From: a virus
Direction: 5' to 3' (one strand)
DNA: 64,000 nt
Virus record (IMG/VR): IMGVR_UViG_3300037337_000032
Coordinates: 1-64,000 of that record
The notes under the pieces are model-generated. The model saw only the letters and a program-made list of their open reading frames with translations, was not told the DNA's origin and searched no databases. A program made the position numbers and the translations under genes. Shown piece by piece: positions 2,698 through 63,120 of the stretch. The stretch's first letter is position 1; the number at the start of each line of letters is the position of its first letter.

Positions 2698-2900
2698 TGA
2701 AATACTTCCATAAAATTAGGTAATGCAAATGAATTGAATATCTCTTCAGTCTCTGCAAAGGTAATCTGATTTGCAACACATAGCAAGTTAAACACTCTAT
2801 TGTCCCCGAGTACACTAAAGAAATCACCCTCTGTTAGCTTATTAAGTTTAACGGGTATAGCGATTATTTCCCAATCTTGAATGTCATGTTCGTTAATCAT
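2682..2900 (-). CDS. Hypothetical phage protein, 72 aa
   Basis: ATG directly follows the ThyX stop region (the genes share base 2900). The central part VKLNKLTEGDFFSVLGDNRVFN resembles a short phage family in which a compact beta domain follows an acidic N-terminus. No catalytic motif. It overlaps the HU-like gene by 16 nt. Confidence 0.6.
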   Translation of the reverse strand: MINEHDIQDWEIIAIPVKLNKLTEGDFFSVLGDNRVFNLLCVANQITFAETEEIFNSFALPNFMEVFQCKLK

Positions 2901-4609
2901 TATAATTCCTCCAGATTGAATACCTTACTGATAGCTTGTGCAACTGCCAATGCAATTTCACGGTGCTCTGTTTGTGTGCTTTCATCTTTACGCACTTCAA
3001 TATAATGGATAAAACTACGAATAGTCCCCTGCATGTATAAACGAGACATTGTATTACCTTCTGGTAGTACTGCACGAGCTTGTTCTTTAGCAATACCGTG
3101 TTCAATTGCCCATTTATAAGCTTCACTAGAAGCTTCAATTACGCGCTTTTGTTGTACTTCCCATTGAAATGCAAGCTTACGGTGGTCATTGTTTTGCATA
3201 TCCAGTGGAATGGAATTCTGACGGTTCTTTGTATCTTGCAGTCGAGCATCACGTAATACAAATGCTAAATCTTTTACAGGATCCGCGTAACGCTGACTAT
3301 TATGGGTAAGAATACCGTTTCCAATGTAATTATGACTCACATGGTCAACTTCCATATCATATGTCATTTGTTCCCCCATATACTTTATAGAGACAACTTC
3401 ACTCCACTCTACAGTAAGTGTATTTCCCTTAGATTTCTCCCTCCAAATTTTACAGTCTCCGTTTAAACCGTGGTGTTCTTTGTGGCACTTCTTGCAAAGA
3501 ACTTCAATGTTGTCCTTATCATAAGCAAACTCAGGATATTCAGCTACAGTTTTAACGTGATGCATTTCCAACTTCTCATTAGAAGAACACCGCTTACATT
3601 TGTAATCAACTGATTGCAAAAACTCACTCCGCAAAGAGGTACACCAATCTGCAATTTTCTGTCTCTCGCTGCGATCTACCCCACCTCTCCATAAATTAGA
3701 TTCGCTACCTTTTCTTGCAGACTTGCGCATTTTTTCAATTGTTTCCATAGAGTGTTTAGGAAGATTGTATCCATAGGCTCCTTTGTTCCAAGCAATAGTA
3801 TATGAAGCTACCTCTTGTTTTGTAAACTGAAGTTTATGAACTTTCAACCATTTGCGAATAGTATGCGTACTAACTTCAGCAGCGTGAGCAATATAATTCA
3901 AGCCCTCACCTGACGCAATAGCTTCCTCTTTTGTTGCTGAAAGCCAAGCTTTGTCTTGATGTACAGCAATACCGTTACAAGCTAAGAAAGATTTTTTACG
4001 CATTGCTGCTGTGTCATTTGACATAAATAATCCTACAGCTTCTTCCATAGTTTGAAAACCATCTTGAGTAAAGAACTTGTGTTCTTTAGTCGCGGTAATA
4101 GACTTACCATTTGCCAACGTAAGTTTAAACACAGGTTTGATACCTGTACAAAATACTTCCTTAATGCCTACAGCAGTAAACACTTTACTTTTTTCATCAA
4201 ATACACGAACATATTTTGGCAAGCTACCTTTTAACTGGAGATTGTATAAGTGCTCAATACTGCGTTTATAGGCAGATCGTTTACTATTTTTAACTCCACT
4301 TGGTAGTTCAAGTGTAATTAAAGTATCACCTGCTACACAAAACTCCTGAAATGCAAAGCTACGGTGACGCAAGATCTGTCTTGCAATATCACGGGTAGTT
4401 TCAATCTCTACCGTAGCACTTGCCATTTCAAACGGAGAAAAATGCTTATGCTTTAGTAGATACTTCAAAAGCTTATCTGCAGTGTCATTATTAAATTGAT
4501 TACTCGGATTAGATACCCTAGCACAAAAAGCAATAAGATCTTTTGCTGAACTAAAGCTTTCTTTGAATTCTTCTGCTGCTTGCGTGTAACCTACTAATTT
4601 TACTTTCAA
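2900..4609 (-). CDS. thyX: Flavin-dependent thymidylate synthase ThyX interrupted by an intein
   Basis: 569-aa precursor. Residues 1-90 and 438-569 are ThyX. The family signature RHRxxSxQExSxRY is split as RHRSFAFQEF (81-90) and SQRY (438-441), with the intein C91-N437 between them. The joined product of 222 aa has the normal ThyX length. ThyX makes dTMP from dUMP using FAD, NADPH and methylene-tetrahydrofolate. C-terminal ThyX features include EQARAVLPEGNTM and SFIHYIEVR. The start overlaps the stop of the metallophosphoesterase gene (ATGA). With RNR and the dCMP deaminase elsewhere in the window it supports a phage-run dTTP supply. Splicing is required for activity because the intein breaks the catalytic motif. 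Confidence 0.95.
   Translation of the reverse strand: MKVKLVGYTQAAEEFKESFSSAKDLIAFCARVSNPSNQFNNDTADKLLKYLLKHKHFSPFEMASATVEIETTRDIARQILRHRSFAFQEFCVAGDTLITLELPSGVKNSKRSAYKRSIEHLYNLQLKGSLPKYVRVFDEKSKVFTAVGIKEVFCTGIKPVFKLTLANGKSITATKEHKFFTQDGFQTMEEAVGLFMSNDTAAMRKKSFLACNGIAVHQDKAWLSATKEEAIASGEGLNYIAHAAEVSTHTIRKWLKVHKLQFTKQEVASYTIAWNKGAYGYNLPKHSMETIEKMRKSARKGSESNLWRGGVDRSERQKIADWCTSLRSEFLQSVDYKCKRCSSNEKLEMHHVKTVAEYPEFAYDKDNIEVLCKKCHKEHHGLNGDCKIWREKSKGNTLTVEWSEVVSIKYMGEQMTYDMEVDHVSHNYIGNGILTHNSQRYADPVKDLAFVLRDARLQDTKNRQNSIPLDMQNNDHRKLAFQWEVQQKRVIEASSEAYKWAIEHGIAKEQARAVLPEGNTMSRLYMQGTIRSFIHYIEVRKDESTQTEHREIALAVAQAISKVFNLEEL
3299..4339 (-). mobile_element. Intein with HNH homing endonuclease inside thyX
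   Basis: 347 residues. Block A is CVAGDTLITL with Cys1. Block B is ANGKSITATKEHKFF with the usual TxxH. Block F is MTYDMEVDHVSHNYIG and block G is GNGILTHN, followed by Ser+1. These are canonical class 1 splicing residues. The insert carries an HNH nuclease: CKRC at 338-341, EMHHV at 348-352 and a second CKKC at 372-375 followed by HKEHH. A helix-turn-helix-like stretch (about 235-260) and a G/S/K-rich NUMOD-like segment (about 280-305) precede it and may bind DNA. Both parts look intact, so it should splice and may still home. Confidence 0.93.
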
Positions 4610-10520: not shown

Positions 10521-12242
10521 TTGGCTGCATTTATTAGACACACAAGTTGCCCCAAGTGTAATAGCAAAGATAATCTTGCTGTTTACGCTGATGGTAGTTA
10601 TTTTTGCTTTAGTTACTGTGGGTATAAATCGGTAAGCGAAGATTTCAAAGAAGCAAATAAAAAGAGTATTATTAAAGTTCGCTCTAGCATTAAAAAGGAA
10701 ATAGAAAATATGGAAGTTAAACCTAGTAGTAAACCTGCAATGACACCAGAAGAAAATGCAGAAATTAAATCTGAAACTTCTGTTAAGGCAAAAGGCTTTA
10801 GGGGTATTTCTGATGGCACATATTCAAAATTTGGTGTTCGTCATGCATTTGCAGAAGATACTGGAAAGGTAATTGAACAATACTATCCTTGTACTCAAGA
10901 TGGACAGCTCGTTGGATATAAGGTTCGTGAAGTGCCTAAAAACTTCTACTCAAGGGGTCGAACAGGAGCAGACTGTGAATTATTCATGCAGTTCAGGTTC
11001 AATCGTGGTGGTAAGTATGTAGTCATTACAGAAGGTGAAGTTGATGCTTTATCTGCATACGATATGTTATCTGATTACAATAAGAGTAAAGGATGGGATT
11101 TTGAAACTGCTGTTGTTTCTCCTACTACTGGAGCTGGTTCATATAAACAGATTGCAGGTCAGTATAAGTTCTTTGATTCTTTCGATAACATTATTATTGC
11201 ATACGATAATGACAAGGCAGGACAAAAGGCAACAGATCGACTTCTTAAAGTACTACCAAAAGGAAAAGTAAAGATTATGCCTATGCGTTTTAAAGACGCT
11301 AACGAATATTTAGATCAAAACGCATCTTCTTCTTTTGTGAGTGATTTCTATAGTGCTAAAAAGCAAGTACCTGTTGGTGTTCTTGCTTCTAGTAAGTTAT
11401 ACGAACGAATCATGGGTCAGTCTGCAGTATCTAAGATCCCTTTTCCTCCTTTTATGCAGAAGCTTAACGAGTTGTTTGTAGGTGGTATGCCATTAGGACA
11501 CATTGTAAATATTGCTGCAGATACAGGCGTGGGTAAAACAACTCTCGTAAATGAATTAATTTATTATTGGATTTTTAATTCACCGCATACTGTAGGGATT
11601 GTTTCAATGGAATTAGATGCAGGGCAGTATGGTGAAGTATTATTGTCTAGGCACTTAGAAAGAAAGATTGCTCTTATTGAAAGTCAAGAAGAAAAGATCG
11701 CCTATCTCAGTAGTCCGCATGTAGTTGAAAAGGCCAGAGAACTTACAATTAAAGAAGATGGAGACTCTCGCTTTTATCTTTTAGATAATCGTGACGGTAC
11801 AATTGAAGAGATCCAGGATACGGTTGAAGAACTTGTGTCTGCTTGTGGGGCTAAGGTAATTGTTTTAGATCCACTACAGGACATCCTAGACGGCCTGAGT
11901 AACGAAGAGCAAGCGGACTTTATGAAGTGGGCCAAAGGCTTTATCAAAAGTCACGGAATTACTTTCATCTTCATCAATCACATGCGAAAGACACCTGCAG
12001 GTCAAAATGGAGCAGATAGTGAGCAAAACATTATGGGGTCCAGTACAATTATTAAATCATCATCTGCAAATATTCTGCTTAAACGGGATAAGATGTCTGA
12101 AAGTGAAATTTTAAGAAATAGCACAGATATTATTGTTACTAAGAACCGTATCTGTGGTCTTACTGGTTCCGCTGGCTCTATTTACTACGACAATGCTACA
12201 CATACACTGCATAGCCTAGAGGAATGGCTAAGTAGTCACTGA
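10521..12242 (+). CDS. DNA primase-helicase (T7 gp4-like)
   Basis: 573 aa with a TTG start 8 nt after AGGAG; no in-frame ATG fits. The N-terminal zinc finger has C10, C13, C29 and C33. A low-complexity acidic/basic linker follows at about 55-95. The Toprim domain shows TEGEVDA (171-177) and AYDNDKAG (228-235). The DnaB-like helicase has Walker A ADTGVGKTT (334-342), Walker B VIVLDPLQD and a later FIFINHMRK. It unwinds the fork and makes primers; the polymerase follows directly downstream. Confidence 0.95.
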   Translation: MAAFIRHTSCPKCNSKDNLAVYADGSYFCFSYCGYKSVSEDFKEANKKSIIKVRSSIKKEIENMEVKPSSKPAMTPEENAEIKSETSVKAKGFRGISDGTYSKFGVRHAFAEDTGKVIEQYYPCTQDGQLVGYKVREVPKNFYSRGRTGADCELFMQFRFNRGGKYVVITEGEVDALSAYDMLSDYNKSKGWDFETAVVSPTTGAGSYKQIAGQYKFFDSFDNIIIAYDNDKAGQKATDRLLKVLPKGKVKIMPMRFKDANEYLDQNASSSFVSDFYSAKKQVPVGVLASSKLYERIMGQSAVSKIPFPPFMQKLNELFVGGMPLGHIVNIAADTGVGKTTLVNELIYYWIFNSPHTVGIVSMELDAGQYGEVLLSRHLERKIALIESQEEKIAYLSSPHVVEKARELTIKEDGDSRFYLLDNRDGTIEEIQDTVEELVSACGAKVIVLDPLQDILDGLSNEEQADFMKWAKGFIKSHGITFIFINHMRKTPAGQNGADSEQNIMGSSTIIKSSSANILLKRDKMSESEILRNSTDIIVTKNRICGLTGSAGSIYYDNATHTLHSLEEWLSSH

Positions 12243-12245
12243 TAG

Positions 12246-12275
12246 TTGACTTAAGACCTAAAGTTGTGATAGACT
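12246..12275 (+). promoter_or_regulatory. Promoter ahead of the DNA polymerase gene
   Basis: -35 TTGACT (12246-12251), 18-nt spacer, extended -10 TGA-TAGACT (12270-12275). It overlaps a terminator hairpin: the -10 starts in its loop. The TGTGATA element is shared with promoters at 20.9 and 22.2 kb. Confidence 0.6.
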
Positions 12276-12293
12276 TTGGGTCTTGTTTATTTG
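12253..12293 (+). terminator. Terminator after the primase-helicase gene
   Basis: AAGACCTAAAG (12253-12263) pairs with CTTTGGGTCTT (12274-12284), an 11-bp stem with one G-T pair and a 10-nt loop, followed by GTTTATTT. The promoter for the next gene is interleaved with it. Confidence 0.7.
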
Positions 12294-12303
12294 GAAGGAA
12301 CAC

Positions 12304-14601
12304 ATGCGTTACATCATTGACATCGAGAGTACAAACCTACTACAAAATGGTTTAGATTACTCTTCTATGCCTTACACTTTAAAACCAGATTATAAAGTTT
12401 GGTGCGTAGTTGTGCGTAACATTGACACAAATGAAGTGCAATCGCTAGTAAAAGAAGAGATCACTTACAAGAATTTGAGCAGTATTTTAGAGGATTGTAC
12501 GGAGCTTATCGGGCATAATATTGTAGCTTTTGACTTACCTGTTCTTATGCTCTATGGTGCATTAGACTATAGCGTAGGGTATCCAGATCAGAGTAGTACA
12601 CTCTTTGGTAAACCTGTAACTATTACAGATACACTTCTGTGGTCAAAACTTTTAAATGCAGATAGACTTGGAGGTCATAGTCTAGATGCCTGGGGTAAAC
12701 GTTTAGGAAATACAAAGGCGCACTTTAAGGAATGGGATCGTTTCTCTCAAGAAATGCTAGACTATTGCATTCAAGACACTAGCGTAAACCATTCAGTACT
12801 TACTGAAATTATTAAAGAGCAAGGTAAGACTGCTTGGAAAAGACCGTATAGTATGGAGGTAAAACTAACCGACCTTACTCTACGACAGGAACTCTTTGGT
12901 TTTGACTTTAACGTAGAACTGGCACATAAAAACGTAGCTGAACTATCTGGTTTTATGCAGGGTATTGCAAAGACCGTTGATCCTCTATTACCTAAGAAAC
13001 GCATGACACAAGGCAACGCAAGTTTCTACCAGTTACCAAAGATCCGTTTCAAAAAGAATGGCGAAGTATCGTCTAATCTCATTAAGTTCTGTGAAAAGCT
13101 GGGTGCTGTACTATCAGAAGACCACCAAACTATTTTATATGATAATAAAGCATTTCCTATAACCACAGAAGTACCTCTAAAAAGTGAAGAGGAAGCAGAT
13201 ATTGAAGATATCGATGTAGTTAAGAGTTATTTACTAACACTGGGTTGGATTCCGTCAGAAGTAAAAGAGCGTGATATCGTAAAGAAAACAGATAAAAGTC
13301 TAAGAGATTATGATGGTATCATTGAAGCGATTGATAGGTATGTAAAGCAAACAGAGAACTCTGTATTTCGTGAGTTGCGCTTAGACTTCTTAGGTGTACG
13401 CATGGACAATCTTCGTGCATTTCTTATCAAGAAGATTAACGGTACAAAACCTATTTACTTACCAACTACACCTAAACTAACTGTAGGATTAGAAAAAGAG
13501 ATATGCCCTAATCTTATTGCACTTGGTGAAAAAGGTGATTTCGTAAAAGATGTAGTGCATTATTATACCTACAGGCATCGAAAGAACTCTATCTCTGGTG
13601 GTGCATTAGATGAAGATGGCGAGCCTATGACTGGTTTTCTAAGCGCAGTACGCGAAGATGGTCGTATACCTACACCTGCAGATACTTTAGGTGCAAACAC
13701 TGGGAGATACCGCCATAAGATTGTCTGTAATGTACCAAGGGTTACTTCTTTGTACGGGGAACAGATGCGTAGTTTATTTGGGAGTGGTAAAGGCTTGTGG
13801 CAACTTGGGTATGACTTTGCTTCACTAGAAGCTAGGGTTATGGGACACTATGTACTTCCTTATACTGATGGTGTAAATCTTGCAGATGCACTAGTCGCAG
13901 AAAAACCTAATGATATTCACAGTATTAATGCAGGTAAACTAGGTATTGATCGTACATCTGCCAAAAGTTTTTCATATGCAGCCATTTACGGCGCTCAACC
14001 TAAAAAACTATCTAAGATGCTAGGCATCAGCGAAGCAGAGGGTCAAGCGTTATTTAAAGACTATTGGGATGCTGTACCTGCACTGAAGGAATTAAAAGAA
14101 CGTGTAGAACAAAGATGGGAAGCAAGTGGCAAGAAAAGCATTCCGGGTATTGACGGTAGGTTGCTATCAACCCGAAGTAAGCACAGTCTTATTAATGTAC
14201 TGTTTCAATCTGGTGGTGCTATTGCAGCTAAGTGGTCTGCTGTGCGTCTAGCTCAAGCAATGGAAGATGAGGGTATTTTAGGTGATCCTTTTAAGCACAG
14301 TAAAAAAGATGTTAAAGTCTGGTGGTTGATCCACATGCACGATGAACAACAGATGGCATGTCATCCGAGCCTACTAAAGATTAAATCTTTTGAGTCTGAA
14401 GAAGAAGCTAAAGAATTTTGCAAGTTAAATGCAGGTTGTAGTGCTATCGGTCACGGTTCAAAGGGTGCTTACGTAGGTTTGAAGACCTTACCCGTAGATT
14501 GCATTGAGAAAGGTATCAAACAAGCTTGCAATGAATTGAAACTCCGTGTAGACTTAGGCTTTGAATACATCCCCGGTGCAAATTGGGGGCAATGCCACTA
14601 A
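12304..14601 (+). CDS. Family A DNA polymerase with 3'-5' exonuclease (T7-like)
   Basis: 765 aa from the ATG at 12304, which has GGAAGGA upstream (an upstream in-frame ATG at 12283 has none). The exonuclease domain begins YIIDIEST (D6, E8) with a later IGHNIVAFDLP block. Polymerase motif A is YDFASLEARV (about residue 503), motif B RTSAKSFSYAAIYG (about 550) and motif C IHMHDEQQ (about 679). It is the replicative polymerase. It resembles T7 gp5 in length and order of motifs; whether it uses thioredoxin is not visible. Confidence 0.95.
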   Translation: MRYIIDIESTNLLQNGLDYSSMPYTLKPDYKVWCVVVRNIDTNEVQSLVKEEITYKNLSSILEDCTELIGHNIVAFDLPVLMLYGALDYSVGYPDQSSTLFGKPVTITDTLLWSKLLNADRLGGHSLDAWGKRLGNTKAHFKEWDRFSQEMLDYCIQDTSVNHSVLTEIIKEQGKTAWKRPYSMEVKLTDLTLRQELFGFDFNVELAHKNVAELSGFMQGIAKTVDPLLPKKRMTQGNASFYQLPKIRFKKNGEVSSNLIKFCEKLGAVLSEDHQTILYDNKAFPITTEVPLKSEEEADIEDIDVVKSYLLTLGWIPSEVKERDIVKKTDKSLRDYDGIIEAIDRYVKQTENSVFRELRLDFLGVRMDNLRAFLIKKINGTKPIYLPTTPKLTVGLEKEICPNLIALGEKGDFVKDVVHYYTYRHRKNSISGGALDEDGEPMTGFLSAVREDGRIPTPADTLGANTGRYRHKIVCNVPRVTSLYGEQMRSLFGSGKGLWQLGYDFASLEARVMGHYVLPYTDGVNLADALVAEKPNDIHSINAGKLGIDRTSAKSFSYAAIYGAQPKKLSKMLGISEAEGQALFKDYWDAVPALKELKERVEQRWEASGKKSIPGIDGRLLSTRSKHSLINVLFQSGGAIAAKWSAVRLAQAMEDEGILGDPFKHSKKDVKVWWLIHMHDEQQMACHPSLLKIKSFESEEEAKEFCKLNAGCSAIGHGSKGAYVGLKTLPVDCIEKGIKQACNELKLRVDLGFEYIPGANWGQCH

Positions 14602-48006: not shown

Positions 48007-49008
48007 TTAAACTGCAATTAGTTTTGATATTAATTCTTCTAACTTATTGATTCTTTGCTCTTGTTCTAAGATTCGCTTAGATAATGCTATGGTTGAAACT
48101 AGTGCTGCATTTCCATAAGCTACCGATAGCCCTCCATTTTCATCCTCAAGCACTGAATTTGGAAGTACTTTTTGTAGTGCTTGGGCAGATACTCCATCTT
48201 GTGTTATAGCGACATCTAATCTATCGTAAGTGCCGTGTTTAACTCCAGACAGCTGTATAATAAAGTCTTCAGGTAAATCTCTCCAATTTGTCTTAATACG
48301 TTCATCAGAATTTGCAGTTATATTACCGCCGCAAGTTAAGTTAGTTCCATTAAAAACTAAATTGGCAGATCCTGCCATCGTTCCTGCGTTGTTGTAAGCT
48401 ACCTGAGTTGTAGTTCCAATTACTGAACCACCTAGCGCAGCAGTTGTTACAGCTGTCACTCGACCTTTGGCGTCTACAGTAACAACAGGTACTGCACCAG
48501 AACTACCATAGCTACCTGCAGTAACCCCAGACGCTGCTAGTGTAGCAATACCTGTTACGGCAGCACTACCGTTAAAACTGCCGCTAGTATAAGTAACATC
48601 TCCAGTTAAAGCGATTGTGCGGCCTGTCTGTAGATTAGTTGCAGTAGTTGCATTACCTGTAATACTAGCCGAGCTATCGATATAACCGGCTGGATTACTG
48701 CTATTGTAAGGAGTATAACCAAGAGCAGTAGTTACATTACTGCTATTAATTTCACTACGTATTGTAGCACTACTTTTATTTTCTACACTTCCAAGACCAA
48801 CGTCACTAGAAACAAGAGATACTTCTCCTGTTTTACCAGCAACTGAAGTAACAGTCCCCGTTAAGAACGAATCAATTGTTCCATTTGCTTTCTTAAAGTA
48901 CAACTTGCTATCGGCATAATTAATAGCTAACTCACCAAAATCTAAATCTCCGACTAAAGGTACTTTAGAGACTACGGATGATTTCTTTAATATAATTTTA
49001 CTTGACAT
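48007..49008 (-). CDS. Tail fibre with C-terminal S74 chaperone domain
   Basis: 333 aa from ATG 49008, with AAGGATTGCAA upstream. The start (SSKIILKKSSVVSKVPLVGD) is a virion attachment type, the middle has GTVTSVAGKTGEVSLVSSDVG and FNGSAAVTGIATLA repeats of fibres, and the C-terminal part begins NSDERIKTNWRDLP, the peptidase S74 pattern (Ser-Asp with downstream Lys), with a coiled coil (LEQEQRINKLEELISK). S74 domains help trimers form and then cut themselves off. Confidence 0.85.
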   Translation of the reverse strand: MSSKIILKKSSVVSKVPLVGDLDFGELAINYADSKLYFKKANGTIDSFLTGTVTSVAGKTGEVSLVSSDVGLGSVENKSSATIRSEINSSNVTTALGYTPYNSSNPAGYIDSSASITGNATTATNLQTGRTIALTGDVTYTSGSFNGSAAVTGIATLAASGVTAGSYGSSGAVPVVTVDAKGRVTAVTTAALGGSVIGTTTQVAYNNAGTMAGSANLVFNGTNLTCGGNITANSDERIKTNWRDLPEDFIIQLSGVKHGTYDRLDVAITQDGVSAQALQKVLPNSVLEDENGGLSVAYGNAALVSTIALSKRILEQEQRINKLEELISKLIAV

Positions 49009-49071
49009 TTGCAATCCTTAATAAAGGTAAAAAGAAAGGCTGTAAAAACCGCCTGTTATCTAGTAAATACT

Positions 49072-50403
49072 TTAGTATGTTCCACCGTCTACTTGAGATA
49101 TAGAAACCAAACCTGCTGTTACTGAAAAGTCAGTACTATCAAACTTAGAGAGACCTAGCACTGAAGTGCTTGCAGTTGGAATAGCACTTGAGCCAGCTGC
49201 AGTTACTAGCCCCTTAGCATTTACTGTAAAGTTAGGAACTGTTACTGAATTACCAAAACTCCCTACATTTCCGTTAACTGTAGTTAGAGTTAACGCAGCC
49301 GATACAGCAGCACTTCCATTTACAGCAGAAAGAGTAGCAGTAGCATCGCCAGTTAAGCTTAGATTACGTGCAGTTTGCCATGTTGTTGCAGTACTAGCAT
49401 TACCAACCAGAGCAGCATAAACAGTAGCTACATTTAGATTCTTATTTAAGTTCCAGCGATCATCTACACTTGAATAAGTTAAAGTCGCTGGTACAGTTGG
49501 GCCGATAATAGTTAAGCCACCACCATCAGCACCCGCTGCATCAACAGCATCTTTAGCTAATTCAATATTCTTGTCGCCTACAGCTACAGTAGTACTGTTT
49601 ACAGTAGTAGTAGTACCCTGTACAGTTAAGTTCCCTGTAATTACTGCATTGCCTGTTACATTGATATTAGCTGAAGTAATATCATCACTTGTAAAAGTAC
49701 CATTTACGTTTACGTTATTAAATACTACGTTACTTGTTGGAGCAACTTCTTGTCCAATCGCTAATGTTACAGTATTATTTGTAACTGTAGCAGCTACACC
49801 AGTTCCTCCTACAAAGGTTAGAGTATCTGTTAATAGGTTAACACTGTCTGTACCAGTACCTCCTGCAATGCTAAGGCTACTAGCTACGCTAGCTGTACTT
49901 ACAGCAGTTACTAGACCTTTAGCGTTCACAGTAACAATTGGTATTGTAGAAGCACTACCGTATGTGCCTATACTTGAGTTAACAGTAGCTAGGGTCAAAG
50001 CAGTAGAAAGATTTGAATTACCGTCTACAGCAGCAAAAGTTGCAACAGCATCTCCAGTTAATCCTAGACTACGTGCGTTTAACCATCTTGTAGTTGTGCT
50101 TGAGTTACCAAGCAACGCTGCAGTAATTACGTTAGCTGCAAAGTTGCCTGAAGCATCTCTCTTTACAATAGTACTTACTGTATTATCTGCAGTTCCAGCA
50201 TCAAGCATATCAGTATAGCGCTTACCGCCAATGATTGTGTGATTTACTGCATTACCTGAAGTCTCAGTACCAGTTCCTATGTATAATCTGTCGCCACCAT
50301 TTGAGCCATTATCCCCCAAAGAAGAGTAAGCTAGTACGCCCTGTCCTAAGACAGCAGGATTACCAGATACCTCTGATCGTTTGATTCTTAAAATTGAAGC
50401 CAT
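49072..50403 (-). CDS. Tail fibre / appendage protein with repeated motifs
   Basis: 443 aa. Several copies of VTVNAKGLVTAVS / FTVNAKGLVTAAG, TARNLSLTGDATATLSAVNG and ITGNLTVQGTTTTVNST are typical of phage fibre shafts and head/tail fibre proteins. N-terminal ASILRIKRSEVSGNPAVLGQ is a common phage tail domain. No enzymatic residues. It is next to the S74 fibre. Confidence 0.8.
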   Translation of the reverse strand: MASILRIKRSEVSGNPAVLGQGVLAYSSLGDNGSNGGDRLYIGTGTETSGNAVNHTIIGGKRYTDMLDAGTADNTVSTIVKRDASGNFAANVITAALLGNSSTTTRWLNARSLGLTGDAVATFAAVDGNSNLSTALTLATVNSSIGTYGSASTIPIVTVNAKGLVTAVSTASVASSLSIAGGTGTDSVNLLTDTLTFVGGTGVAATVTNNTVTLAIGQEVAPTSNVVFNNVNVNGTFTSDDITSANINVTGNAVITGNLTVQGTTTTVNSTTVAVGDKNIELAKDAVDAAGADGGGLTIIGPTVPATLTYSSVDDRWNLNKNLNVATVYAALVGNASTATTWQTARNLSLTGDATATLSAVNGSAAVSAALTLTTVNGNVGSFGNSVTVPNFTVNAKGLVTAAGSSAIPTASTSVLGLSKFDSTDFSVTAGLVSISQVDGGTY

Positions 50404-56798: not shown

Positions 56799-57167
56799 TT
56801 AATGTTTATTTAATCTGTATCTTACACTATCAGGTAGTTTACCACCTTCACTGGTATTCCAGCCCATATTCTTAAAAGGTCTGAAAATACTCTCTATGTA
56901 GTATGCTTGAGCTGCTGTGCATACGCATAATCTAGATATTATAATATCTTCTATTGCATATTCATTAAGTACAGTATGTAGTGCACTATAACTACTAGAA
57001 GTACTTTTAGCTTTTCTACAGTGCTCTTTAAATCTAACCTCTATTTCTCTAGTAGTAACACCAACGTATCCTTCTGAGAATACGTCAGTGTGTTCTTTTA
57101 AATGCAGCCAATATACATAAGCTGTTTTCTGGTTAGCCTGCGATAGACTACCTACGTTAGCCTGCAT
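56799..57167 (-). CDS. GIY-YIG endonuclease
   Basis: 122 aa. The fold motif is AYVYWLHLKEHTDVFSEGYV, where the GIY and YIG equivalents are VYW and GYVG, then REIEVRFKEH (catalytic Arg/His region) and AYYIESIFRP (Glu). Such free-standing nucleases home into neighbouring genes. It is inserted between portal and tail genes and starts within the last codons of the portal gene. No DNA-binding extension is seen beyond GGKLPDSVR, so activity is uncertain. Confidence 0.8.
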   Translation of the reverse strand: MQANVGSLSQANQKTAYVYWLHLKEHTDVFSEGYVGVTTREIEVRFKEHCRKAKSTSSSYSALHTVLNEYAIEDIIISRLCVCTAAQAYYIESIFRPFKNMGWNTSEGGKLPDSVRYRLNKH

Positions 57168-58647: not shown

Positions 58648-61334
58648 TTATGATACTAATGAACTGCGATACTCAGGTATTACACCAGAAGCACCCGATC
58701 CAAAGGGGTTTGAACCTGTGAAGTCAGGTAGTGAAAACGTAGGAATAACTAGCTCTTTATTTAACAAAAGAAAGGCATCTGAACAAACGTCTGCAATGTC
58801 ATCTTTCTTTTTAGGGTCACCATCGAATACTTCAAGTTCATCATAAAACGCTTTGTTCCAGTCTGCTTTTACTACATTAATAAAACCAGCTTGTGCTACA
58901 CTTGAGAATGGTGCAAAGCGAGTAACCTTTGATTTAACTGGTTTAGACAACCTTACGTTGAAGCCCATCTCTCCTAATTTGCGCTGTAAATCTCTTGCAT
59001 AAGCTCCAGCAGCAGCAGCAGGATCAAGAGGGATAGATACTGTTACATCTTGACCATCATGCACTGCAGTCTCAAAGATCATTTTCTCTACGTTATGCAC
59101 TCTATCTCTCATAGACCGTAGATCTTCTACAGTATACACATTAGTACTATCCTTTGACATTAGCACGCCACGAGTCCAGTCTGGATTAGGGTACTGCTCC
59201 GAAGGCAAGCTAAAGGCAAGATCCCATGCTCTAATGCGCTTCTTAGCTCTTCCGTTAGGTAGCTCTACCTCTTGTACCCACTCGCGTTTAAACAGCCCAG
59301 AGGACTGCTGACGAGCGTACCATGAACCTAGTAGCAACCGTTCCATTTCTACTCTAGGCAATGCCTTGAGTTTAGATATATAGGTAGGATCTGCTTTCAT
59401 CAGTGGAGGGTTATCGTAGATTGTACCCGGTATGAACTTAAAGGTAAGAATACCAGATTGATCTCCTCCACCGTAAGTATCTTCTAGCTCTCGCTTAGTA
59501 TCCGACCACACAAGAGATCCACCTGCTACTTGCACCATGTAGCGCATCGGGTATATTTCTTTTCTAATTGGTATACCACGTTCATCTAATGCGAATTCTA
59601 CCCACTCTCTGATAAAACTATCATAGTCTGGATTGCCTGTAGCAAATGCTTGCTTCTTATAATCCACAGAAGTAGACCGTAGACGTGAAAGCAGGTAAAC
59701 TACGTTATCTTGATTCAACTGCTGTATTTCATCAAAGCCTAGAAACGTTATTTCTGAACCTTGATAGTTATACTTATCTGAAGCAGTATCTAAATATCCA
59801 AAACGTAATTTAGCTCCAGAACGAAAGATTAGCTCCTGCTCGCGCACTTTTACTCTCAGCTTAGGATCTACTTTTTTATACAGATTTACTGCTGAATCAA
59901 ATAAACCGCCTGGATTAGATATCTGTTTAGTAGTTCTTCTGAAGATTACACCACGAGTTCTAGGGTGGTGACAGAACTTCAGGAATGCACCTAAAAGACA
60001 GTGCGAATTATGAGTAACAATGTAATTACTCGTTAAGAATAATCTGTCTTCACCTGAAATACTTATGCATGTAGCGTAATCTGAGGCAACTTTTGTTATG
60101 CTGATTATGCGATTGCCAGTAATCTTGAACTTAGTCCTTGTACTTTTTCTAGGTAAGCTGAAGAGTTTGCTCTGATATTTACCTCTGATATATAAGTTGT
60201 ATGAATCTAAGCATGGTACCTTAGCACCTAACTTGTTTTTGTAATACGTCTTTTTAACCTTAATAGAACAAGTAAACCCAAGCGAATGCAATACCTGTTT
60301 GATATCCGAAGCTAGTACCTCAGATGCAGTAGAATAATAACAAGCACCGCCTGCGTCTACATAGCCGTCTGTATCCATCAAACCTTGTAGAAGGTTGAAA
60401 CGATCCTCTACTGTACTTCTTTTATATTCTTCTGGTATGAACTTAGTTTCAGACCTTTTACCATATAAGTTTAATTTCTTTAGTGCAGGTACTAGTTTTT
60501 GAACACCATACATAAATACATTATTAGGTTTCTCCGATGAGTACCTATTTACAGTATAACCTTCACTGCGAATTCTATCGATAATCTCTACATCTTGAGA
60601 GGTAATAGTAGCAATAGTTGACACTAAGCAGCCATCACCAATAAGCGCACCAAGTGTATATGGGGCTATATCTAACTGCTCTTTATCAAAGCCTATAGGC
60701 TCTGTAAGAGGTAGTATAGGTCTGAAACCTTTACCTAGTCTATTCAAAAGATGAAGAGTTGTATCAACCTTAACCTTGCCTCTGCCTCTAGCTTCATGGT
60801 AAGACCAAAGGTGCTCACCGCAAACATCTACAGTAGAAGCATCTTGCATCTCAACCCTGTAAATATCTACTACACCCTGTGGGAATATACCTGTTACTTT
60901 TTCCTTTGTGTTCTTGTGGGTTATTACTGTTTCGCCAATATAGATATCTTCTACATTCTTGAAACCAACATCAGTGAGCACTTTTTCACCATGTCTAAGT
61001 GCTTTACCAGAACCAGCTGCCTTTACTGTTATATGCTTCGTTAGAGCATCCCAAGTTTCCTTGGGTGTCGGACTATATCTTTGCAACTCAATGCACCTAC
61101 TGTTTCAGCTCCACTTGGAGCTTACTCCCTTGCGGGATAGTCTCTACACACGCCCGAAGTTTCCTTCTGCTTGGCTCGGTATTGCCCTCGTCTTTACGTT
61201 AGGGTTTCACCGAATTAAATAGGTTTTAAATGGAGGCGCATATGTTCACCACCATAGAATGTAATATCTGCATCACTCATTAAGAATTGTTCCTGAGCAC
61301 TAGATGCAGGTGAAAATACAATGTTACTTGACAT
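58648..61334 (-). CDS. terL: Terminase large subunit, split by a group I intron and an intein
   Basis: Exon 1 is 61334-61248 (29 codons, ending FYGG). After removal of the 227-nt intron (61247-61021) exon 2 runs from 61020. Six codons (AAGSGK) follow, then the intein (61002-60007), then SHCLLGAFLKF. The joined protein is 487 aa, normal for TerL, and restores the Walker A GGAAGSGKS. Walker B region: ITFLGFDEIQQ. The nuclease domain has RIRAWDLAFS and later DIADVCSDAFLLL. It packages DNA. Without both splicing events no ATPase motif is made. The start has AAGGATATAA upstream. Confidence 0.93.
60007..61002 (-). mobile_element. Class 3 (WCT-type) intein with LAGLIDADG endonuclease inside terL
   Basis: 332 residues between Lys and Ser of the Walker A. 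It starts with Ala1 (ALRHGEKVLTDVG), so there is no nucleophile at position 1. Block B has GEHLW (Trp at B:12), block F ATCISI (Cys at F:4), block G VTHN (Thr at G:5), then Ser+1: the WCT triad of class 3 inteins. The DOD endonuclease motifs are LGALIGDG (117-124) and LQGLMDTDG (205-213). Looks complete. Confidence 0.9.
61021..61247 (-). mobile_element. Group I intron, 227 nt, in terL
   Basis: Exon 1 ends GGU, and its last nt pairs as U-G with the guide (GCGCCTCCAT) about 15 nt inside the intron. P4 TCGGT/ACCGA with GAAA/GCAAT joins, P5 CCCT/AGGG, P6a GAAG-GAAA-CTTC, P7 GACTAT/ATAGTC, and P9 CCCAAG-GAAA-CTTGGG and ATGCT/AGCAT are all present. The last nt is G. No reading frame fits inside, so it has no homing gene of its own. 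Confidence 0.92.
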
Positions 61335-61342
61335 TTATATCC

Positions 61343-61687
61343 TTAATCCGAGTTAATTACTTTTAAGCTAAATACTGGAGCATTCTGCTGCTGAATCTCA
61401 ATACCTGCTTCATCTTGTGCTTCTTCTGTGTCATACATATCTAAAGTTAATCTGCGATAGTTATCCAAAAGGATAGTTGCAGCTTTTAGCTGATTTTGAT
61501 GCGAAGCTTCTTGGTTCTTCATGATACTTGCAGCCTGTACAATAGCTTCAGCGATATGGGGCTTAATTCGCCTTAACAGCATAACCAACTCACGTTCTTT
61601 TAGTTCGCGGTTAGTTGGCTTATCACCTACAGTGTCTTGTCTAGGTGGTCTTCCCTGCGGGTTACCTGATTTACCTTTTATAAACAT
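61343..61687 (-). CDS. Terminase small subunit-like protein
   Basis: 114 aa. N-terminal KGKSGNPQGRPPR is the start typical of a family of phage proteins next to terminase large subunits. Helical middle (LLRRIKPHIAEAIVQAASIM) and an acidic tail. GGAGAG precedes the ATG. Ends 8 nt before terL, so it is called small terminase by position and motif; DNA recognition is not shown. Confidence 0.65.
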   Translation of the reverse strand: MFIKGKSGNPQGRPPRQDTVGDKPTNRELKERELVMLLRRIKPHIAEAIVQAASIMKNQEASHQNQLKAATILLDNYRRLTLDMYDTEEAQDEAGIEIQQQNAPVFSLKVINSD

Positions 61688-62628: not shown

Positions 62629-63120
62629 TCAATCGAATATACAATATCTGTTTAAAATCTTAGCGTATTTAAGTTGTATCCTAGAATACAGTATTTTAGC
62701 TATTACTACATCTTGCACTACTCTTACTTTATCCTTTGAATTCTCTTTCCATATCAGAAGATATGAAAACATATCCTTAGAATGCGGCTGCAGTTTTAAA
62801 GCACCTGATAAGTTTCTATGTGCTTCTTTGATAATATTATATATATTCTTAGGTAATAGTTTTAAGTTTATATACCTATAATCATCTTCATTTAAATTTC
62901 TATGCAAGACTACTTTATCTTTTTGCACTATTATATTTTGCACAAGTTGTATTGCTGTCTTATTAGCTTTAAACTTTAATCTCTTACCATTCTTATAAAA
63001 TATAATATAACCCTCTTCATTTGGAAATATCCTACGGTATCTTAAATTATTCTTTATTATAAAGAAAGCACCTTCAATCATGTCATAATCTAAAATTAAA
63101 CTTATTTCTGTTATTGTCAT
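62629..63120 (-). CDS. Degenerate HNH-like phage protein, 163 aa
   Basis: Starts MTITEISLILDYDMIEGAFF, like HNH-type phage endonucleases, and contains VVLHRNLNEDDYRYINLKLL (the region where HNH residues lie, with His-Arg-Asn-Leu), then AHRNLSGALKLQPHSKDMFS. Zinc cysteines are absent. I recall the pattern from phage proteins of unknown role, possibly decayed homing nucleases or RNA-binding proteins. Confidence 0.6.
   Translation of the reverse strand: MTITEISLILDYDMIEGAFFIIKNNLRYRRIFPNEEGYIIFYKNGKRLKFKANKTAIQLVQNIIVQKDKVVLHRNLNEDDYRYINLKLLPKNIYNIIKEAHRNLSGALKLQPHSKDMFSYLLIWKENSKDKVRVVQDVVIAKILYSRIQLKYAKILNRYCIFD

Follow-up and report, generated by a model that had tools for sequence, protein, structure and literature searches.

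The terminase gene terL of the virus studied here is interrupted twice within its Walker A motif, by a group I intron and by a class 3 intein that lie 18 nt apart. Very probably, these are two independent mobile elements that entered the same P-loop hotspot, and RNA splicing followed by intein excision would restore the motif. The gene lies in the window, by which we mean the whole 64,000-nt stretch that was analysed (positions 1 to 64,000 of IMG/VR record IMGVR_UViG_3300037337_000032, which holds 74,497 bases). TerL is encoded there in three separated pieces on the minus strand, from 61334 to 58648. Exon 1 (61248..61334; 29 codons, 87 nt) encodes MSSNIVFSP...DITFYGG and ends with TTC TAT GGT GGT. 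It is followed by the 227-nt intron, which lacks an ORF (61021..61247), by 18 nt encoding AAGSGK (GCAGCTGGTTCTGGTAAA; 61003..61020), which form both the start of RNA exon 2 and the end of the N-extein, and by the 332-aa intein, which contains a LAGLIDADG homing endonuclease (60007..61002). The C-extein begins with Ser +1 (SHCLLG) and runs through the stop codon (58648..60006), encoding what remains of the ATPase domain together with the nuclease domain. Pfam matches downstream of the intron (Terminase_6N, E 2.5e-16; Terminase_6C, E 1.8e-14) correspond to the ATPase and RNase H-like nuclease domains. Joined together, the three pieces encode a TerL of 487 aa; with the intron removed and the intein still in place, the precursor has 819 aa.

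The nearest named relative is Limnohabitans phage DC31, whose TerL is 61% identical and uninterrupted, and an uninterrupted GGAAGxGKS is seen in relatives. A PDB sequence search with the spliced TerL as query gave no match. The coordinates, lengths and sequences of exon 1, the intron, the AAGSGK stretch and the intein agree with the original prediction, which was made from the letters of the window. That prediction also spoke of an 18-nt exon fragment, a description that holds for the distance between the two insertion points but not at the RNA level, where there is no micro-exon: exon 2 measures 2.37 kb and includes the intein. The possibility that the reading frame starts elsewhere had been raised as well. 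The candidate is an 812-aa ORF from a TTG at 61086, inside the intron; its product would be missing residues 1-29 and with them the Walker A GG. We rejected this start because intron-less relatives use the start in exon 1.

Several kinds of evidence identify the intron. A covariance-model search matched Rfam RF00028 at 61257-61049 over the full model (1-253) with 64.3 bits (E 5e-14; gathering score 50), and this is the sole group I match across the virus record. Against model R1, the intron scores 275.9 bits. The 5' strand of P1 is formed by the last 8 nt of exon 1 (61255-61248, AUGGUGGU), which pair with the guide strand GCCUCCAU at 61237-61230 with one U-U mismatch. As predicted, U-G is the pair at the 5' splice site and the intron terminates in G, as do 9/9 of the introns extracted. 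The two strands of P7 lie at 61142-61137 and 61076-61071 (GACUAU/AUAGUC). When seven related introns were aligned to the named structure including the P7 pseudoknot, 90.8% of cells were paired, and 26 of 58 core pairs showed compensatory changes on both sides, a number reached by none of 500 shuffles. The core helices also emerged from an unguided fold, which contained P1, P3, P4, P5, P6, P7.1, P7.2, P8, P9 and P9.1 (z = -3.1). P7.1 and P7.2, two extra hairpins between P7 and P3 that appear in the fold and in the alignment, are a mark of group I subgroup IA. By its sequence, the terL intron is a group I intron, IA-like, and self-splicing is predicted.

A search for an ORF inside the 227 nt found none. 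The intron contains an in-frame UAA at nucleotide 31, and an unspliced message would truncate the product at 39 aa. An in-frame stop falls within the first 40 nt of all nine introns extracted; therefore, an unspliced message yields a truncated product in each case. The earlier view that TerL needs both elements removed is upheld by this stop. The further claim that virion production would stop if a single step were lost applies to failed splicing, but not to precise loss of an element.

The intein was likewise predicted to be of class 3, a class defined by a W-C-T motif together with the block B His (PMC7664689). It starts with ALRHGEK and ends with VTHN, and Ser is the next residue. Its first residue is Ala1 rather than Cys or Ser, and the C-terminal His-Asn followed by Ser is also as found in class 3. 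His64 and Trp66 (60813-60805), Cys312 (60069-60067) and Thr330-His331-Asn332 (60015-60007) are invariant among 23 related inteins, and the H-x-W spacing matches that of MchDnaB1 (H65/W67). The endonuclease (Pfam LAGLIDADG_3, PF14528, E 8.8e-9) has its two motifs, LGALIGDG and LLQGLMDTDG, at 60654-60631 and 60393-60364, and both keep their acidic residues. An AlphaFold2 model of the intein has a pLDDT of 93. Foldseek places PI-SceI at the top for this model (E 8.5e-18) and also finds the class 3 intein MchDnaB-1, with target-normalised TM scores of 0.73-0.80. In sequence and in the model, this is a class 3 intein with a Hint fold, for which protein splicing is predicted.

How precisely can the element boundaries be placed? 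The IMG/VR contig L002, at 99.2% identity to the window, carries the intein and lacks exactly the 227 nt of the intron, reading ...GGTGGT^GCAGCTGGTTCTGG... (GGTGGT^GCAGCT); its exon 1 differs from that of the window by one base. Both insertions recur in L003, which comes from a different metagenome. Only the intein is present in L004 (96%), and only the intron, at the identical site, in L013, L014, L015 and L058. L005 and L016 (86-87% TerL identity) have neither element and read ...GCAGGTAA(A/G)^TCACAT... where the intein is absent as well. All four allele states, both elements, intein only, intron only and neither, are thus found among relatives. Read as sequences, these natural alleles prove both element boundaries and bear out the view that two unrelated elements sit in one conserved P-loop. 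Of the changes in terL between the two double-insertion alleles, the window and L003, 7 are synonymous and 3 non-synonymous (dN/dS ~0.13 for terL plus intein). This mostly synonymous pattern is that expected of a working gene under purifying selection.

The alleles also suggest an order of arrival. The intein is present in all four nearest alleles (4/4) and the intron in two (2/4), so the simplest order is intein first and intron later. On that reading the intron would have inserted into an allele with the intein in place; a recent precise intron loss is a possible alternative. Comparison of the window, L003, L002 and L004 for a co-conversion tract flanking the intron gave one linked SNP, ~33 nt upstream, too few to inform.

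We propose the following mechanism. The transcript would lose the ORF-less intron through ribozyme splicing, which would join FYGG to AAGSGK, and the spliced mRNA would be translated into the 819-aa precursor. The intein would then excise through a branch at Cys312, joining GGAAGSGK to S, giving an intact Walker A motif in the 487-aa TerL and the joined peptide FYGGAAGSGKSHC. The two splicing steps would not conflict, because the intein lies in RNA exon 2 and the steps act on different molecules. The conserved Gly-rich codons of the P-loop (GGNGGN...GGNAAR) are matched by the intron guide (GCCUCCA with UGGUGGU), and the same codons would be natural DNA targets for homing endonucleases, whether borne by an intein or free-standing upstream of terL. 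We propose that unrelated elements meet at the P-loop because its Gly codons serve as both P1 target and homing-endonuclease target. An intron without its own endonuclease probably spread in trans with a neighbouring enzyme, that is, by collaborative homing. From the sequences we infer splicing in vivo, homing by neighbouring endonucleases and the order of arrival, and by analogy with relatives the collaborating enzyme for the window intron.

The same pair occurs elsewhere. When IMG/VR was scanned with a DNA pattern describing inteins of this family that follow the P-loop lysine, 16 contigs matched; the same pattern found no match in contigs of the genome collection. A group I intron lies immediately upstream of the intein in 6 of the 16 (L003, L080, L081, L127, L133 and L142), at a spacing of 18 nt (for example GG|GAGGGK in L127) or 15 nt (GGG|AGxGK). 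TerL identity among these pair-bearing lineages is 27-52%, the L080/L081 pair aside. On a 53-row TerL tree, for which most loci with both elements or with the intein only were collected through the intein, the state with both elements needs at least five changes, and its cases lie near intein-only relatives. Judged on this tree, the pair has at least five separate occurrences.

Each element is also found at the P-loop on its own. A sample drawn with a TerL profile contained many more P-loop introns without an intein, inserted after GG, GGG or GGxA and apparently further in, and P-loop inteins occur at G|S and at K|S/T. Among the TerL-sampled loci, an intron is present in 2/7 with an intein and in 22/128 without one (Fisher p = 0.6). 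In this sample the two elements coincide no more often than would be expected if they invaded independently. An attraction between intron and intein, for which this comparison found no excess, was therefore rejected, and the coincidence needs no special attraction. Among loci found through the intein, introns are commoner (6/16, p = 0.04 with kinship ignored), and a slight dependence between the two elements may exist.

Homing endonucleases are frequent next to interrupted terL genes. A homing endonuclease-like ORF lies directly upstream of terL in 14/21 intron-plus loci versus 29/102 intron-minus loci (p = 0.002, with kinship ignored and an endonuclease query panel drawn largely from intron-plus loci). 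These ORFs mostly end ~80-130 nt before the P-loop and belong to NUMOD4-HNH, HNH-AP2, GIY-YIG-like and other families. Free-standing genes of this kind stand between terS and terL in L005, L007, L010, L013, L014, L016, L054, L074 and others, and in the first sample NUMOD4-HNH genes were found only beside intron-bearing terL. Taken as sequences, these loci mark the TerL P-loop as a hotspot for repeated invasion by mobile elements.

In the window, the small terminase-like gene (DUF5681; 61343..61687, minus strand) lies directly upstream of terL and ends 8 nt before it, and the gap holds no endonuclease gene. A search of the virus record for a relative of the NUMOD4-HNH enzymes found none. The closest endonuclease candidates within the window are two ORFs on the minus strand. 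One, of 163 aa, lies 1.3 kb upstream of terL (62629-63120); its match to HNH_3 is weak and below threshold, PHROG and Pfam gave no match, and it is perhaps a decayed homing endonuclease. The other is a small ORF after the portal gene (56799-57167) with a weak GIY-YIG match, and phage DC31 has a gene of equal size in its position.

Could the two elements instead move as a unit? The intein's LAGLIDADG endonuclease might cut an empty terL, and an intron 15-18 nt away would then be copied along by co-conversion. The spacing is short enough for this, the endonuclease motifs are intact in an intein under purifying selection, the pair recurs across several lineages, and introns are over-represented among the loci found through the intein. 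However, the intein occurs without the intron in L002 and L004, and the intron without the intein in L013, L014, L015 and L058. Moreover, the TerL-based sample shows no excess of co-occurrence, and many intron-plus terL genes adjoin endonuclease genes of other kinds. We therefore regard joint movement as improbable; if it were true, an ORF-less RNA parasite would travel on a protein parasite, and intron and intein would be a cooperating pair.

A regulatory role for the two steps is less probable still. The original prediction had suggested that they could act as a timing control, and a switch that keeps TerL inactive until late in infection would fit the need for both removals before an ATPase-competent TerL is made; beyond that need, we found no evidence of such a function. 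"Molecular on-switch" ideas have been proposed for phage introns (PMC11878797) and inteins (PMC5050341). However, we found no regulatory feature, and the intron is absent from the 99.2%-identical L002, as are both elements from the close relatives L005 and L016. The splicing steps are therefore dispensable over short evolutionary times. The patchy distribution, with all four combinations, is that of parasites, and we consider a timing switch very unlikely. Independent invasion remains the reading we favor, and the elements look, from their sequences, like mobile DNA that has settled in a hotspot. That the double insertion is a decaying or mis-assembled terL that is never spliced is hardly credible: this terL is known from sequence alone, but the independent assembly L003 repeats the identical structure, which rules out an assembly error, the frames are intact at the low dN/dS given above, and the intron core is kept through compensatory changes.

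An intron and an intein in one gene, inteins in the P-loop of TerL and spliced terL introns are each already known separately. The "intron-intein coincidence" was described for bnrdE of Bacillus phage SPbeta (Lazarevic 1998; Derbyshire and Belfort 1998, both as cited in PMC3653736 and PMC1654191). On the SPbeta record (L229), we measured an Rfam intron at 11544-11759 and the intein at 12226-13380, sites ~460 nt apart in a ribonucleotide reductase gene, whereas in terL the sites are 18 nt apart, share one nine-residue motif and recur. The terL pair is a much tighter, recurrent form of that coincidence. Mycobacteriophage TerL1-a and TerL1-b are similar in being inteins in the Walker A motif of TerL, with TerL1-a between Lys and the nucleophilic Thr, and class 3 inteins occur in mycobacteriophage TerL; the available text of the source describes no adjoining intron (PMC5050341). 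The host gene here differs in being of Terminase_6 type, and the intein belongs to another family (GK|ALxHGEKVL). Group I introns split terL of SIOphi and other Bastillevirinae (PMC11878797) and of Jug phages (PMC12363816), and their splicing was demonstrated by RT-PCR or metatranscriptome reads in the same studies; none is reported beside a P-loop intein. In haloarchaeal MCM, also an ATPase gene, several mobile elements likewise lie close to one another, as neighbouring inteins of which one follows the Walker A lysine (PMC10643990), but these are two inteins and not in one motif. The present case also resembles the collaborative homing described for ORF-less introns and endonucleases encoded by free-standing genes (Bonocora and Shub 2009; Zeng et al. 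2009, as cited in PMC2814812), in that the terL intron has no ORF and homing endonuclease genes adjoin intron-bearing terL in relatives. It differs in that the window has no adjacent endonuclease gene, and site cleavage by the relatives' enzymes is putative. In our literature search, no report described a P-loop that holds both an intron and an intein, or the repeated occurrence of such a pair.

Why does this arrangement matter? Over ~30 nt of terL, parasites acting at the RNA level and at the protein level have met time and again and in every allelic combination, with endonuclease genes a short distance upstream. Phages that are nearly identical but differ in having the intron open two long-debated questions to a direct test: whether a neighbouring element can mobilise an ORF-less intron, and whether splicing elements control the gene that holds them or only shelter there. 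There is also a warning for annotators in a deposited record. Rheinheimera phage Barba1S (L115; record 48465-50234) has an unannotated group I intron at the same P-loop site. With that intron overlooked, its TerL (gp095) was given a start downstream of the Walker A motif. Once the exons are joined, ...VIGGAAGSGKSYLL reappears in a single frame, and the intron was matched in 115 Rheinheimera records.

Further arrangements were seen along the way. In Vibrio phage VEN (L116), a related group I intron, which scores 112 bits with model R1, interrupts a DNA packaging gene and is followed by an annotated homing endonuclease gene. Second group I introns occur within terL in the Walker B region of L058 (2750-2978; TFIG...VDEIQQ) and at the nuclease DD motif of L015 (2981-3242), where extra sequence may hold an endonuclease gene, and also in L133 and L142. 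Within the window, ThyX (thymidylate synthase complementing protein; 2900-4609, minus strand) holds a second intein with an HNH domain, QEF|CVAGDT...THN|SQRY (Pfam Thy1, Intein_splicing and HNH). Finally, one TerL P-loop (L064, 2800-4000, the same contig as L136) appears to contain two inteins 9 nt (SGK) apart in the arrangement GGSAG[C...GN]SGK[A...HN]T: the first, a candidate Cys1 mini-intein, ends SGN|S and has no Pfam match, and the second, a class 3 intein lacking an endonuclease, ends THN|T.
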